From contig JASHQP010000256.1 of assembly GCA_030039095.1 (NCBI GenBank), positions 1 to 11,921 of the forward strand: 11,921 bases of DNA. The letters run 5' to 3'. Origin of the DNA: Streptosporangiaceae bacterium. GTDB taxonomy: Bacteria > Actinomycetota > Actinomycetes > Streptosporangiales > Streptosporangiaceae. Position numbers and translations under genes: made by a program. This document shows positions 3,404 through 11,480 of the stretch, one piece after another; position 1 is the first letter of the stretch; each line of letters starts with the position of its first letter. The notes under the pieces were generated by a model. It was not told where the DNA came from and did not search any database. It saw nothing but the letters and a program-made list of their open reading frames with translations.

Positions 3404-3487
3404 TCAGCCGGACGGGGGTTGCGAGGGACCGGACGGGGTTGCGAGGGACCGGACGGGGTTGCGAGGAACCGGACGGGTTGCGAGGGG
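3404..3487. repeat. 20-bp tandem repeat, about 3.5 copies, abutting the regulator 3' end
   Basis: The unit GCGAGGGACCGGACGGGGTT is perfect at 3421-3440 and 3441-3460. It is followed by a 19-base variant (3461-3479) and a partial copy, and preceded by a partial copy that includes TCAGCCGGACGGGG. The latter repeats the DNA at 3493-3506, which is the stop codon and last codons of the regulator gene on the other strand. The array therefore seems to have grown from the end of that gene. There are no spacers between units, so it is not a CRISPR. Confidence 0.85.
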
Positions 3488-3491
3488 AGGA

Positions 3492-5297
3492 TCAGCCGGA
3501 CGGGGTGACGATGCCGTACTCGTGGATCTTCCGGTAGATCGTCGCTCGCGACATGCCGAGCGACTGGGCCGCCTTGACCTTGTTGCCGCCGGAGTCGAGC
3601 AGGCTCTGCACGATCGCGTCGCGCTCCATCGACTCCAGCGGGCTGAGCAGCCGGCGGCTGACCGTCCAGCACTCCGGCGGCAGGTCGGCCGCGCGGATCG
3701 TCCCCGTGCGCCGGTGCTGGACGACGCGCCTGAGCACCTGCCACAGCTGCTCGGTGTTGCCCGGCCAGCTCGACCGCATCAGGATCTGCATCGCCTCGGG
3801 CGAGCACGTCAGCCGGGGATGCTGGTTGAGCTTCGCGAGCAGGAACGGCACCAGGTCGTGCAGGTCCTCGATGTGATGCCGCAGCGGCGGCAGCTCCACG
3901 CTGCTCGGGAAGAACCGGAGCAATCCGGCCAGGTCGCCCCTGGCCGGGCCGTGGGCCAGGGTCACCACCACCCAGAGCTCGTCTTGCCGGCGCGCGGTGC
4001 GGGTTTCCTGCAGCGCGGCCGACAGGGCGTGCAGGCGCTTCGGGCCCAGCCGGTCGATGTGCCTGATGACCAGGCAGCCAGCGCCGGTCAGCAGTTCGCT
4101 GCGGGCGGTGACATGCCAGTCCTGGCCGGCGGCGTCGGCGGCGTCAAGGACGTGGAACCGGCCGGCCGGGTTCCGGCGCTGGTGGACAGCACGGACGACG
4201 GCCAGCTTGCCGATCCCCGGCTCGCCCTCGATGGCAAGCCACTCGCCGGAGTCGTAGACCTTTTCCACCTGGTGGCATCCGCGCAGCCACAGCGTGCCGG
4301 AGCCGACCAGCCCGGGAAGGATCATGCGGGCCTGCGACCCGGCAGGAGCCACCGGCCTGCTGCCCGACTCGACGAGCTTCACGTGCACGACGCCGCCGGC
4401 CAGCCGGTCGTCACCGTGCAGCGGCCTGCAGTACATCCGCGCACGTGACCCCGTTGGCAGCTCGAGCTCGACCGCGGCTGAGTGGCGGCTGGCCAGCGCC
4501 TCGGTGGCCTGGCCGAGCAGCACCGCCTGGTCGCCGGGATCGAGCGCCTGCCGCGCATACTCGTTCATCATCACCACGTCGTGGTTGAGCGCCAGCACGA
4601 TCCCGGCGCTGTGCCGGCACGCGCGCAGGTACTCCTGCAGCAGCTCGAACTCCCGCGCGTTGCTGTCGGTGAGCAGTGCCTGGGTGATCTGGTCGGCCGT
4701 GGTCTTGGCCAGGGTGATCAGCAGCGGATCGGCGTCCTTGCGCCAGCAGGTCAGGTCGACGGCGCCGAGCGTCTTGCCGGAGATGGGGTGCCGGATCGGG
4801 ACCCCGGCGCAGGCGAGGTCCTCCAGGTTCTCGGCGTAGTGCTCGTGGCCGAACACGTGCATCGGGCGGCCGCCCTCCAGCGCCGTGCCGATGCCGTTGG
4901 TGCCAACGGACTCCTCGGCGTAGCTGAACCCGGGAGCCAGCTTCACGCTGTCGAGGTGCCGGTCGAGATCGTTGTCGGCCACCAGCCGGGTCAGCACTAC
5001 CCCGGCCGCGTCGGTGAGGATGACGCTGATCGGCTGACCCTCCAGGTGCTCGCGCAGGTGCTGCAGAACCGGCAGGGCGCTGCGGGTCAGCGGGGTGTCC
5101 AGGTCGGGGTCGCCCAGGTAGGTCAAGTCGATGCGGTCGGCCGCCACGTTCCATCGGCGCGAGCGCCACCACGAGGCCAGGATCGTGTCCCGCACCCGGT
5201 TGGGGTCGACGGCCTCGGCGGTGAGGAATCGCTCACGGGTCTCGGCCAGCCGTTCGCCATCGGCCAGGGCCGGCGGGCGCGCTGCTGCAGGCGTCAT
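3492..5297 (-). CDS. MimR/AcoR-like transcriptional activator (GAF - degenerate AAA+ - Fis HTH)
   Basis: A 601-residue protein with the layout of AcoR-type enhancer-binding proteins. A GAF sensor spans about 70-210, with the family signature FSYAEESVGTNGIGTAL at 124-140. A second PAS-like region follows (about 225-310). The ATPase-like domain (about 325-530) has Walker A GEPGIGK (358-364) and a WPGN segment (511-514). The C-terminal Fis helix-turn-helix lies at about 572-595 (NKVKAAQSLGMSRATIYRKI). The GAFTGA loop that contacts sigma54 is absent. The Walker B region reads CLVIRHID (408-415) instead of a DE-type motif, so ATP hydrolysis is doubtful. That fits actinobacteria, which generally lack sigma54. 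Divergent position beside prmABCD matches MimR-type activators of mycobacterial propane monooxygenase; the likely role is inducer-dependent activation by binding the TGTCTCA palindromes. A strong AGGAGGG precedes the ATG closely; GGGAGG lies a little further up. Confidence 0.9.
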   Translation of the reverse strand: MTPAAARPPALADGERLAETRERFLTAEAVDPNRVRDTILASWWRSRRWNVAADRIDLTYLGDPDLDTPLTRSALPVLQHLREHLEGQPISVILTDAAGVVLTRLVADNDLDRHLDSVKLAPGFSYAEESVGTNGIGTALEGGRPMHVFGHEHYAENLEDLACAGVPIRHPISGKTLGAVDLTCWRKDADPLLITLAKTTADQITQALLTDSNAREFELLQEYLRACRHSAGIVLALNHDVVMMNEYARQALDPGDQAVLLGQATEALASRHSAAVELELPTGSRARMYCRPLHGDDRLAGGVVHVKLVESGSRPVAPAGSQARMILPGLVGSGTLWLRGCHQVEKVYDSGEWLAIEGEPGIGKLAVVRAVHQRRNPAGRFHVLDAADAAGQDWHVTARSELLTGAGCLVIRHIDRLGPKRLHALSAALQETRTARRQDELWVVVTLAHGPARGDLAGLLRFFPSSVELPPLRHHIEDLHDLVPFLLAKLNQHPRLTCSPEAMQILMRSSWPGNTEQLWQVLRRVVQHRRTGTIRAADLPPECWTVSRRLLSPLESMERDAIVQSLLDSGGNKVKAAQSLGMSRATIYRKIHEYGIVTPSG

Positions 5298-5367
5298 GGC
5301 CCTCCTGCCTCCCGGGTGCTCTCGCGGGCGGCGGACTCGGCCCGAGCGGGGGTCGTCCGGGGTGTGC

Positions 5368-5396
5368 GTCCTACGTACAACGTAACAACGCCGTAA
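5368..5396 (-). promoter_or_regulatory. Possible promoter of the regulator gene
   Basis: On the minus strand TTACGG followed after 17 bases by TAGGAC is a loose -35/-10 pair about 70 bases upstream of the regulator ATG. The palindromic operator at 5405-5420 would lie just upstream of this -35, suited to autoregulation. The hexamers are weak and the call is tentative. Confidence 0.25.
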
Positions 5397-5404
5397 CGCA
5401 CAGG

Positions 5405-5420
5405 TGTCTCAAGTTGAGAC
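5405..5420. promoter_or_regulatory. Operator copy 1: perfect 7-1-7 palindrome
   Basis: GTCTCAA-G-TTGAGAC (5406-5420) is a perfect inverted repeat preceded by T, giving TGTCTCAAGTTGAGAC. It sits in the divergent gap between the regulator and the 82-residue gene. A near-identical site lies upstream of prmA at 5747-5762 (14 of 16 bases). Fis-type HTH regulators bind as dimers to such palindromes, so this is the best candidate binding site for the divergent activator. Confidence 0.75.
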
Positions 5421-5433
5421 CGCGAATTCGCGG
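5420..5433. promoter_or_regulatory. 14-bp perfect palindrome directly abutting operator copy 1
   Basis: CCGCGAATTCGCGG is fully self-complementary and shares its first base with the last base of the operator palindrome. The pair forms a continuous block of two palindromes 34-47 bases before the ATG of the small gene. It could be a second protein site or a hairpin in the 5' leader; function unknown. Confidence 0.55.
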
Positions 5434-5450
5434 CCACCTCCAACGGTCTC

Positions 5451-5465
5451 GGGTAGGAGGTACCC
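5451..5465 (+). promoter_or_regulatory. Ribosome-binding site in a small hairpin loop
   Basis: GGGTA (5451-5455) and TACCC (5461-5465) can pair and present GGAGG (5456-5460) in the loop. The AGGAGG ends six bases before the ATG at 5467, an ideal distance, and fixes the start of the small gene. Whether the short stem forms in the cell is uncertain. Confidence 0.4.
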
Positions 5466-5466
5466 C

Positions 5467-5715
5467 ATGGACCGACGGGACGAACCAACCCGCGAGACCT
5501 TCAATCCGTGGAGCATCGTCAATCTCGTGTTCCACCATCTGGCTGATCAGGGCCTGCATCCCGTCCTCGGGGAGGCGGGCGACCCGGGCGCGCCCGCCGC
5601 GGAACTGCTCCGGTCGCTCGGCATCGAGCCGGCCGCCGAAGGGAACATGCAGGTCTCCCGCGACGTCCGGGATCAGCTCGCCGAGATCCGCAACGCGATG
5701 TTCGGGGACGGCTGA
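5467..5715 (+). CDS. 82-residue protein of unknown function, first gene of the prm operon
   Basis: Starts at ATG 5467 behind a perfect AGGAGG six bases upstream. An upstream in-frame codon at 5404 would run through the operator palindrome and is rejected. The protein is soluble and acidic to neutral, with no signal peptide, membrane segment or Cys. Its centre, FNPWSIVNLVFHHLADQGLHPVLG, followed by GDPGAPAAELLRSLGI, predicts two helices joined by a Gly/Pro turn. I recall similar short actinobacterial hypothetical proteins but can name no function. It lies between the divergent regulator and prmA, in the prmA direction, with operator palindromes both before it and after it. That suggests co-induction with the monooxygenase and a role in assembly, regulation or delivery of this enzyme. 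This is inference from position only. Confidence 0.75.
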   Translation: MDRRDEPTRETFNPWSIVNLVFHHLADQGLHPVLGEAGDPGAPAAELLRSLGIEPAAEGNMQVSRDVRDQLAEIRNAMFGDG

Positions 5716-5922
5716 CGCGCGTTTCGCTGCGCCGCTGGCCGCCACCTGTCTCATGTTGAGAACCACAGACGGCCTGGCCCGAGGTGTGATGCAGGTCACC
5801 GGCAGTGTTCGGCCGTGCAGAGCTTGTGCGCCCGCTAGCGCGCTGCGGCGGCGCCGCCAGCGGACACGATCACGGAGGCAGGCAGGCTGTCTCAGCCGGC
5901 CCGAGTGCAGGAAGGGGTGACC
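5716..5922 (+). promoter_or_regulatory. prmA upstream region with second operator and leader
   Basis: This 207-base gap has no gene. It holds operator copy 2 (5747-5762) and a further TGTCTCA half-site at 5888-5894, 29 bases before the prmA ATG. A GC-rich hairpin-capable block (CGCT...GGCGGCGCCGCC...AGCG, 5841-5862) lies between them. I could not identify convincing -35/-10 hexamers. Its length and operator suggest prmA has its own inducible promoter in addition to any read-through from the small gene. Confidence 0.5.
5747..5762. promoter_or_regulatory. Operator copy 2 upstream of prmA
   Basis: TGTCTCATGTTGAGAA differs from operator copy 1 only at the central base and the last base. It is centred about 170 bases upstream of the prmA ATG, within the range of an activator site if a leader follows. 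The conservation of the arms TGTCTCA and TTGAGA between the two copies is the main support. Confidence 0.75.
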
Positions 5923-7578
5923 ATGAGTCGCCAGAGCGTGGCAAAGGCCCACCAGAAGATCCAGGAACTCGCCTGGGAGCCGCTCTACCACGAGCCAGTG
6001 TCGCAGTACGGAACCGACTACACGTTCCGGAAGGCGCAGAAGAAGGACCCGCTCAAGCAGGTCCTGCGGTCGTACTTCCCGATGCAGGAGGAGAAGGACC
6101 ACCGCGTCTACGGCGCCTCGGACGGCGCGATCCGCGGCAACATGTTCCGGCAGGTCCAGGAGCGGTGGCTGGAGTGGCAGAAGCTGTTCCTGTCGATCAT
6201 CCCCCTGCCCGAGATCTCCGCGGCGCGCGCCATGCCGCTGCTGTTCCGCACGGTGCCCAACCCGGAACTGCACAACGGCCAGGCGATCCAGATGATCGAC
6301 GAGGTCAGGCACTCGACGATCCAGCAGAACCTCAAGCGCCTGTACATGAACAACTACATCGACCCGGCGGGCTTCAACTCGAGCCTGCGCAACTTCCAGA
6401 ACGACTACTGCGGGACGATCGGCCGGCAGTTCGCCGAGGGGTTCATCACCGGTGACGCGATCACGGCGGCGAGCATCTACCTGACGATCGTGGCCGAGAC
6501 GGCGTTCACCAACACGCTGTTCGTGGCCATGCCGGCCGAGGCGGCGGCCAACGGCGACTACCTGCTGCCGACGGTGTTCCACTCGGTGCAGTCCGACGAG
6601 TCGCGGCACATCAGCAACGGGTACGCCACGCTGCTGATGGCGCTGGCAGACGAGAGCAACCACCAGCTGCTCGAGCGCGACCTGCGGTACGCGTGGTGGA
6701 ACAACCACCGCGTGGTCGACGCGGCGATCGGCACGTTCATCGAGTACGGCACCAAGGACCGCCGCAAGGACCGCGAGTCCTACGCGGAGATGTGGCGGCG
6801 GTGGATCTATGACGACTACTACCGCAGCTACCTGGTGCCGCTGGAGAAGTACGGCCTGGTGATCCCCCACGACCTCATCGAAGAGGCGTGGAACCAGATC
6901 TGGAACAAGGGCTACGTGCACGAGGTAGCCCAGTTCTTCGCCACCGGCTGGCTGGCGAACTACTGGCGGATCGACCCGATGACCGACAAGGACTTCGAGT
7001 GGTTCGAGTACAAGTACCCGGGCTGGTATGACCGGTACGGCAAGTGGTGGGAGAACTACAACCGGCTGTCGAGGCCGAACGGGCACCACCCGATCGTCGC
7101 CGAGGACGTCGACTACAACTACCCGCACCGCTGCTGGACCTGCATGGTGCCGTGCCTGGTCCGCGAGGACATGACCATGGCCGAGGTCGACGGGCAGTGG
7201 CGGACGTACTGCCACAAGGAATGCCAGTGGACCGACGAGGTCGCGTTCCGTCCCACCTACCAGGGCCGGGAGACCCCGAACATGGGCCAGCTCATCGGCC
7301 ACCGCGAGTGGGAGACCCTCTACCACGGCTGGAACTGGGCCGACGTCGTGTCCGACATGGGTTACGTGCGTGACGACGGCAAGACCATGGTCGCGCAGCC
7401 GCACCTGGACCTGGACGACCCGAAGAAGCTGTGGACGCTCGACCACCTGCGCCGGATGCCCGAGGTGCAGAGCCCGAACGTGCTGCTGAACGCGATGACG
7501 GCGGAGGAGCGGGAAGCGTTCCACGCCAACTACATCCGCGGCGGCCCTGCAGGCCGCTTCGCGCCAGCGGAGGACTGA
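5923..7578 (+). CDS. prmA: Propane monooxygenase hydroxylase alpha subunit (soluble diiron monooxygenase)
   Basis: A 551-residue catalytic subunit that hydroxylates a hydrocarbon (propane expected) using O2 and electrons from PrmB. The carboxylate-bridged diiron site is complete: Glu97 (PLPEISA), Glu127 and His130 (DEVRH), Glu192 (AETAFTN), Glu226 and His229 (DESRH). The intervals 30, 3, 62, 34 and 3 equal those of soluble methane monooxygenase (114/144/147/209/243/246). Thr196 matches the conserved active-site Thr213 of that enzyme, and Gln134 replaces its Cys151, as in toluene monooxygenases. A cluster Cys404, Cys407, Cys411, Cys430, Cys434 suggests a structural zinc site as known from phenol hydroxylase. 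Start at ATG 5923 is set by AGGAAGGGG five bases upstream; a GTG at 5905 would precede that site. Gene order alpha-reductase-beta-coupling is that of prmABCD/mimABCD. Propane, acetone or phenol are possible substrates; the sequence cannot choose. Confidence 0.95.
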
Positions 7579-10325: not shown

Positions 10326-10383
10326 ACGACGGCGGTGCCCAGGGGCTGTGCTGTAAGTAGCAGCTCCTGGGCACCGCCGTCGT
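10326..10383 (+). terminator. Very strong hairpin immediately after prmD
   Basis: ACGACGGCGGTGCCCAGG (10326-10343) is perfectly complementary to 10366-10383, an 18-bp GC-rich stem. It is extended inward by a G-U pair and a GCTG/CAGC stem, leaving a 12-base loop. It begins directly after the prmD TAG codon. GGGG rather than a T-run follows. It could terminate, or partially terminate, transcription before the amidohydrolase gene, or block 3'-5' decay of the prm message. Confidence 0.85.
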
Positions 10384-10433: not shown

Positions 10434-11480
10434 GTGTATCAGAAGGACGGCGAGAAGTACTTCATAGTCGACAGCCACATGCATTACTGGAACGCCGCTC
10501 CTGACAACTGGGTCGAGGGTGCGGAGCAGTACGCCAAGGGCTGGATCGAGTGCTTCCACGCCTACCAGGGGCTCGGCCCGCCGGAGACGCACTGGACGAT
10601 CGAGCACTTCCAGAAGTACTCCGAGGACGACCTCATGAAGGACGTCTTCGAGGACGGCCACGTCGACGTGGCGATCTTCCAGCCCACCTATTTGCTCGAG
10701 TGGTACAAGGAGGGCTTCAACACCAGCGAGCGCAACAACACCATGGGGGAGAAGCACCCGGGCAAGTTCATCTACAACACCCGTTTCGACCCCAGGAATG
10801 GCGACGAGGGCCTGAAGGCCCTCCGGGAGAACGTCGCCCGTTACGGGTCCAAGGGCGTCAAGCTCTACACCGCCGAGTGGAACAACGGATCGCGCGGCTA
10901 CAAGCTGAGCGACCCCGCGGCCTACCGCTTCCTCGAGGCCGCCCAGGAGCTCGGCATCAAGAACGTCCACGTGCACAAGGGCCCGACGATCTGGCCGCTG
11001 GACAAGGACGCGTTCGACGTGTCGGACGTCGACCACGCCGCGACCGACTTCCAGGGGCTCAACTTCATCGTCGAGCACGTGGGCCTGCCGCGGATCGAGG
11101 ACTTCTGCTTCATGGCGACGCAGGAGCCGAACGTGTACGCGGGCCTGTCCGTGGTCATCGGCGGGCTCATGTACGCCCGGCCGAAGTTCTTCGCCAAGGT
11201 CATGGGCGAGCTGCTGTTCTGGGTCGGCGAGGACAAGATGACCTTCGGCAGCGACTACGCCATCTGGGAGCCCAAGTGGCAGATCGAGGGCTTCGTCGAC
11301 TGGGAGATGCCTTCGTCTGAGGAGTACTCCGACTACCCGAAGCTCGGCACCGCCGGGAAAAAGAAGATTCTGGGCCTGAACGCGGCGCGACTGTATGACA
11401 TCGACGTACCCGAGGAACTTCGGCTGCCCGCCGAAGCAGGTGCGCCGGCCGCCCAGGACGACGCCGCCCCGGTCGAGTAA
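10434..11480 (+). CDS. Amidohydrolase family 2 (PF04909-type) protein of the propane monooxygenase locus
   Basis: A 348-residue TIM-barrel amidohydrolase, cytoplasmic, of the amidohydrolase-2/decarboxylase-like group. Visible metal-site residues are IVDSHMHYW (His15, His17), VHVHKG (His181), IVEHVG (His215) and GSDYAIW (Asp274), the usual HxH...H...H...D set. These residues suggest an active metal enzyme (hydrolase or decarboxylase); the substrate is unknown. Homologues accompany prmABCD/mimABCD clusters in actinobacteria, so a role in maturation or in metabolism of an oxidised product is likely but not shown. GTG 10434 is used because AGGAGG (10424-10429) precedes it; an out-of-frame ATG overlaps at 10432. 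It lies 108 bases after prmD beyond the strong hairpin, so its expression is probably lower than that of the hydroxylase unless it has its own promoter. The Ala/Pro/Glu-rich tail (about the last 20 residues) looks disordered. Confidence 0.88.
   Translation: MYQKDGEKYFIVDSHMHYWNAAPDNWVEGAEQYAKGWIECFHAYQGLGPPETHWTIEHFQKYSEDDLMKDVFEDGHVDVAIFQPTYLLEWYKEGFNTSERNNTMGEKHPGKFIYNTRFDPRNGDEGLKALRENVARYGSKGVKLYTAEWNNGSRGYKLSDPAAYRFLEAAQELGIKNVHVHKGPTIWPLDKDAFDVSDVDHAATDFQGLNFIVEHVGLPRIEDFCFMATQEPNVYAGLSVVIGGLMYARPKFFAKVMGELLFWVGEDKMTFGSDYAIWEPKWQIEGFVDWEMPSSEEYSDYPKLGTAGKKKILGLNAARLYDIDVPEELRLPAEAGAPAAQDDAAPVE

Follow-up and report, generated by a model that had tools for sequence, protein, structure and literature searches.

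The propane-monooxygenase locus

The window, by which we mean the whole stretch of 11,921 nucleotides analysed here, is a propane-monooxygenase locus with the prmABCD gene order, as assigned by Pfam and NCBIfam profiles. The regulator gene diverges from prmA, a small gene lies between the two, and each of the intergenic gaps around this small gene (5298-5466 and 5716-5922) holds one palindrome. The features on which the analysis turns are these:

3492..5297, minus strand: divergent gene of the putative activator (matches to PF01590, PF25601 and PF02954)
5379..5384, minus strand: TACGTT, the regulator's own -10-like box, 21 nt from site 1
5405..5420, no strand: TGTCTCAAGTTGAGAC, predicted operator site 1, with the perfect palindrome GTCTCAA-G-TTGAGAC at 5406-5420; predicted to serve the regulator and the small gene
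5467..5715, plus strand: small gene (82 aa) of a conserved family with an NPW...GLHP motif
5747..5762, no strand: TGTCTCATGTTGAGAA, predicted operator site 2, an imperfect palindrome; predicted to serve prmA
5785..5790, plus strand: TGTGAT, -10-like box of prmA, 22 nt past site 2
5923..7578, plus strand: prmA, hydroxylase large subunit and first gene of prmABCD (Phenol_Hydrox match)
10434-11480: amidohydrolase ORF

Downstream of prmA follow, in order, a reductase, the beta subunit, a MimD-type coupling protein (MimD NF045941, 179.7 bits against a cut-off of 150), the amidohydrolase and a DUF59-type (FeS_assembly_P) protein. Two repeats also stand out in the window: a 20-bp unit, CCGGACGGGGTTGCGAGGGA, occurs four times in tandem at 3408-3486, directly past the 3' end of the regulator gene, and a strong inverted repeat at 10326-10383 (23-nt arms, 96% complementary, 12-nt loop) separates the coupling-protein gene from the amidohydrolase gene.

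A sequence-only reading of the window had picked out the two 16-letter words as paired palindromes, and they do lie one in each gap flanking the small gene, with 14 of 16 bases identical. Their symmetry held in full for site 1 but only in part for site 2, where 5 of the 6 outer pairs match within the 15-mer 5748-5762. The two sites are the sole exact matches to TGTCTCANGTTGAGA in the window, and at up to three mismatches there are 3 matches, two being opposite-strand readings of one place, where 0.45 would be expected. Simulated GC-rich DNA often contains generic pairs of similar palindromes, on average 1.54 per simulated window and at least one in 152 of 200 simulations (the window has 3), so the window alone is no proof of significance and the case rests on comparison.

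A third half-site had been proposed as well. TGTCTCA is indeed present at 5888-5894, but is probably no operator: it is without a partner half, falls past the place where prmA transcription is predicted to begin and is statistically weak, the word occurring 3 times in the window against 1.04 expected and at least three times in 18 of 200 shuffles. Among relatives, locus L009 keeps GTCTCA at this position, and L001, L004, L020 and L043 have no TGTCTCA-type half-site there. As a separate observation, the prmA leader at 5888-5910 resembles the leaders of L004 and L009, a CTCAGCCG(A/G)CCCGA-like sequence being shared by all three.

The palindrome recurs upstream of prmA

To compare loci we took the best 80 PrmA relatives, one genome per species and all close relatives (88-95% identical), together with the window, and searched the 1.61 Mb of these 81 loci with GTCTCA-N3-TGAGAC at no more than one mismatch. 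Of 151 sites recovered, 135 fall within 700 bp upstream of prmA. The reading had staked its claim on the motif being found upstream of orthologous prm genes, and 73 of the 81 loci carry a site within that distance. Most of the loci (58 of 81) share the two-site layout, in which the small gene stands between divergent regulator and prmA with a site before each, and where the small gene lies within 1.2 kb upstream of prmA a site (at most one mismatch) precedes it in 62 of 64 cases. The departures are few in kind. Three loci have the first site only, namely L008 and L009, in which the small gene nearly abuts prmA, and L001, in which the second site has two mismatches; nine have a single site and no small gene there; L029 has two tandem sites, again with no small gene there; L067 has both sites and its regulator elsewhere; and L022, where the contig is cut, has the second site only. 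The eight loci without a site near prmA comprise seven from Actinomycetospora and one Acidimicrobiales MAG (L070).

Across these loci there are 20 distinct words at site 1 and 38 at site 2, with a nearly invariant core of TCTCA-N3-TGAGA; 30 of the 38 site-2 words have T at position 3 of the 17-mer. Since the middle three bases vary, the GTT within the consensus first proposed (TGTCTCA-W-GTTGAGA) is no part of it; the outer arms stand, and the consensus is corrected to TGTCTCA-N3-TGAGACA.

The motif extends to more distant relatives. In the family of genome G153, PrmA occurs in 29 of 201 genomes at 76-78% identity, and all 29 prmA loci have a site roughly 100-205 bp upstream, exact in 27 and with a single mismatch in 2; exact sites are likewise found on plasmids of Rhodococcus sp. 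JS3073 and R. aetherivorans BW2. The six proteobacterial prm loci (L210-L215) have no exact site; degenerate pairs about 32-33 bp apart in L212 and L213, and weaker pairs in L214, are suggestive only. One record deserves a separate remark: in L024, which bears the name Rhodococcus rhodnii (12.4 Mb), the sites upstream of prm and their spacing resemble those of Kibdelosporangium L026, and the record may be mislabelled.

The small gene has a narrower distribution. Its ATG is preceded by a ribosome-binding-like AGGAGG, and its 82-aa product belongs to a family of 3547 proteins at E ≤ 0.001 (the best 120 of the 3547 listed) with a strict NPW..VN.VF..L...GLHP motif. The protein has no Pfam or NCBIfam match; its predicted structure (mean pLDDT 71, pTM 0.46) has no PDB fold match at E ≤ 0.001, and comparison with PDB sequences yields no relative beyond chance. 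The gene lies close to the regulator in most of the 80 loci, in some even with prmA elsewhere, and was present in 3 of 26 genomes searched; it was not found at E ≤ 1e-5 in 31 further loci (the 29 of the G153 family and the 2 Rhodococcus plasmids). Missing as it is from many other prm genomes, the small gene belongs to certain lineages only, whereas the site upstream of prmA is not so limited.

The site is rare elsewhere in genomes

In 14 prm genomes (about 127 Mb) we counted 29 exact sites, against 1 for a reversed-pattern control. Twenty-one lie within 700 bp upstream of prmA, two directly precede another or distant AcoR-type regulator gene (L016, L067) and six are unexplained; where the regulator is far from prmA, a site precedes the regulator gene.

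A class sample of 246 genomes gave the same association. The exact site occurs in 23 genomes, among them all 5 that encode full-length PrmA (E ≤ 1e-100), as compared with 18 of the 241 others. Upstream of prmA itself a site with at most one mismatch is present in all 5; in G102 the exact site lies 10 kb from prmA, which has a one-mismatch site before it. A sixth genome has a PrmA fragment at a contig end only, and no site. For 8 of the 18 site-bearing genomes outside the PrmA set, the site is upstream of an AcoR-type regulator (G037, G062, G092, G132, G143, G150, G190, G192). The other 10 showed no AcoR-type regulator or matching HTH within ten 2-kb stretches, and their sites all fall within reading frames of 149-582 codons without a stop, the expectation for chance occurrences in coding sequence; the reversed control matches 10 class-sample genomes, the same number.

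Sites are held at a fixed distance from -10-like boxes

Aligning loci on the palindrome revealed promoter-like boxes at constant spacing on three sides. Toward prmA, a box of the form T-x-T-x-A-T starts 22 nt past the palindrome (55 non-redundant loci), with T23, T25, A27 and T28 carrying 1.25-1.80 bits; toward the small gene the same positions are seen more weakly (0.30-1.31 bits, 42 non-redundant loci), and the window itself has no good -10 box at the expected place on this side. Toward the regulator, 41 of 47 non-redundant loci have a TANNNT that starts at a distance of 21-23 nt, as opposed to 0-2 of 47 in each of 14 other offset bins. The prmA-side boxes are of TGTGAT, TGTAAT and TTGTAT types, and an A at the second position, normally key in a -10 box, is avoided (2 of 55 loci).

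The start point of prmA was placed by way of Rhodococcus sp. BCP1, in which the prmA start was mapped by primer extension and a -10 of TTGTAT and a -35 of CAGATC under a conserved palindrome were proposed (PMC4428276). These hexamers and their spacing fit loci L199 and L202, both of which carry exactly GAGACAGATC and have GTCTCACATTGAGAC, whose last C starts CAGATC, and TTGTAT 22 nt past the palindrome; the BCP1 palindrome is therefore, by inference, the present motif. Taking 7 bp from -10 box to start, as BCP1 implies, the palindrome would be centred near -43, and the predicted start point of prmA in the window is about 5798.

This geometry bears on two alternatives. The first is that the palindromes are chance words or a non-regulatory element such as a terminator or attenuator hairpin, as the simulations above might invite. 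It would have to account for a site in 73 of 81 loci and for -10-like boxes that keep a set distance from it on three sides; moreover, site 2 is upstream of the predicted start and thus outside the transcript from that promoter, which counts against a hairpin. We regard this explanation as extremely improbable.

The second is that the same regulator binds but mainly represses, or acts in both ways, with autorepression at site 1 and prmA de-repressed by an inducer. The sites end beside the -35 region, site 1 faces the regulator's own promoter (an operator so placed is a common layout for autorepression) and a palindrome near -43 would suit a repressor equally. Against this, the prmA-side sequence past the palindrome shows no conserved -35 hexamer and its -10 box is without the second-position A, as expected of an activator-dependent promoter, and the regulator's family (AcoR, MimR) is generally activating. 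A predominantly repressing role is, in our judgement, unlikely. A short, constant interval between site and -10 box, combined with the lack of a good -35 hexamer, is the arrangement of a class II activator promoter and is what these loci show; because site 2 adjoins a stretch without a conserved -35 hexamer, class II recruitment is the most likely mode of action.

The regulator and its recognition helix

The divergent regulator, a MimR-like protein, has a GAF domain (PF01590, E 6.9e-13) and, as the sequence-only reading had it, ends in a Fis-type HTH (PF02954, E 1.6e-11). Between the two hallmarks of an AcoR-type (GAF/Fis) regulator, which it thus possesses, its AAA+ region is degenerate with a lid domain present (PF25601). 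No match to the sigma-54-activation domain PF00158 was found and GAFTGA is absent from the translation; the protein does not class as a sigma-54 enhancer-binding protein.

The letters of the site tend to change with the recognition helix of the regulator, a tendency drawn from comparing sequences. The helix in the window is SRATIYRK. In the class sample, an exact GTCTCA site accompanies 11 of 18 regulators with a RAT helix versus 1 of 18 with other helices (Fisher p 9.4e-4), a p that overstates the case because the regulators are related and the search went deeper in genomes with the motif than in the rest, where 5 candidates per genome were taken; the count drops 3 regulators with short upstream sequence and takes in those caught by the helix expression. 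Seven of the 18 RAT-helix regulators are without the exact site. Four Actinomycetospora loci in which prmA has no site have a regulator 11 kb off whose estimated start is preceded, at about 80-95 bp, by GTCTCG-N3-CGAGAC; this palindrome accompanies the GRATLYRR helix in 4 of 5 Actinomycetospora regulators (L216 has none), a count leaving out G442 and G443, for which the helix of the neighbouring regulator was unread. With RSS or RSG helices, GTCCCA-type palindromes occur in 3 of 5 cases (L123, L124, L146); of the exceptions, L112 has neither palindrome and L141 has a GTCTCA site, a counterexample.

Some other DNA-binding protein, a catabolite regulator for example, could own the palindromes while the neighbouring regulator does not bind them. 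TGTGAT at 5785 is a CRP-like half, and TGTGATGCAGGTCACC (5785-5800), overlapping the -10 box, fits 9 of 10 CRP-like positions; Cappelletti 2015 (PMC4428276) also described putative CRP sites in the vicinity of prmA. This CRP-like word differs from the palindrome, and 9-of-10 matches at the -10 box are common to only 2 of 72 loci, so we discarded it as a candidate CRP site. The palindrome, for its part, is rare elsewhere, precedes distant regulator genes and varies with the helix, which is not the behaviour of a global regulator's site, making foreign ownership very unlikely.

Sites outside prm clusters

The motif was at first taken to be specific to prm, a restriction that did not survive: it also stands before related regulators adjacent to amidohydrolase-led clusters without a monooxygenase. 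In G062, G092, G132, G150, G190 and a second cluster of G239, the site occupies the gap between regulator and amidohydrolase genes, and the amidohydrolase is related to the window ORF at 10434-11480 (Pfam Amidohydro_2 confirmed for L137, L139 and L142). In L139 the next genes encode a DUF59-type protein and a zinc alcohol dehydrogenase, and L137 and L138 have a gene of the ABM family nearby; the corresponding genes in L140 and L142 are named only by their resemblance in sequence. G192 has an alcohol-dehydrogenase-like gene next, and an amidohydrolase is not among the called genes. The stretches fetched for these clusters contain no prmA, and at E ≤ 1e-100 PrmA is absent from G062, G092, G132, G150, G190 and G192. 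The G143 site separates an AcoR-type regulator gene from one of the hydantoinase/oxoprolinase family, to which acetone carboxylase subunits belong. Because sites precede regulators of monooxygenase-less clusters, the predicted operator belongs to the regulator clade and not to prm alone. Beside amidohydrolase clusters, regulators of L117, L118 and L121 have two tandem palindromes 23 bp apart, which suggests paired dimers.

A proposed model for control of prmABCD

Conservation, rarity, position before regulator genes, association with the helix and fixed spacing to the -10 box together make it most likely that the palindromes are operators. That they are operators of the divergent GAF/Fis (AcoR-type) activator is the reading we favour, with a probability of roughly 0.84 on sequence evidence. 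Under this activator reading, a dimer of the regulator would bind TGTCTCA-N3-TGAGACA through its Fis-type HTH; from site 2, centred some 43 bp before the predicted start of prmA transcription, it would recruit ordinary (sigma-70-type) RNA polymerase in a class II manner, independently of sigma-54. Site 1 would act likewise in both directions, toward the small gene and toward the gene of the regulator itself, and an inducer from the propane pathway would presumably act through the GAF domain.

More tentatively, and with considerable doubt, the model might be generalised. Actinobacterial GAF/Fis regulators lacking a sigma-54-activation domain might form a clade of class II activators with a readable helix-to-operator code, in which SRAT would read GTCTCA, GRAT-RR would read GTCTCG and SRSS/SRSG would read GTCCCA, acting on -10 boxes without the key A at clusters for short-chain alkanes and alcohols. 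In the lineages that have it, the 82-aa protein, expressed from the shared site, might then be a dedicated partner of the regulator or of the monooxygenase.

Relation to known systems and significance

The arrangement recalls MimR of Mycobacterium, whose gene is also divergent from the monooxygenase genes; Furuya et al. (2011) reportedly found this divergent regulator to be required for acetone-responsive expression of mimABCD. In BCP1, the closest described case, a conserved palindrome similar to E. coli Fis sites covers the -35 region of prmA, and Cappelletti et al. (2015) pointed out a Fis-family regulator gene immediately upstream (PMC4428276). The Fis-like palindrome of prmA and its Fis-family neighbour are thus already in print (PMC4428276). 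As far as the accessible text of that paper extends, it treats the prmA promoter only, whereas the present analysis adds the regulator-side and small-gene sites, the covariation and the genome-wide scan. Also similar is the butane monooxygenase of Thauera butanivorans, where an enhancer-binding protein, BmoR, acts on an alkane-monooxygenase promoter via an upstream inverted repeat, using sigma-54 polymerase and an upstream activating sequence that precedes the -24/-12 boxes by 193 bp (PMC8899819). Unlike BmoR, the regulator here has no match to a sigma-54-activation domain, its site is predicted near -43 and the -10 box is sigma-70-like. In the literature searched, the two-site layout, the cross-genus consensus, the use without a monooxygenase and the helix/operator association were not found in print, and a search on the motif letters returned no paper on the operator, weak evidence given that subscription literature lies mostly outside such a search.

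Propane oxidation genes also co-oxidise pollutants, for example dioxane and N-nitrosodimethylamine. The analysis gives these genes a precise, testable operator and promoter layout, useful for propane biosensors and for predicting co-regulated genes, and the motif connects the same type of control with a set of clusters lacking a monooxygenase and, in many lineages, with a small, uncharacterised protein.
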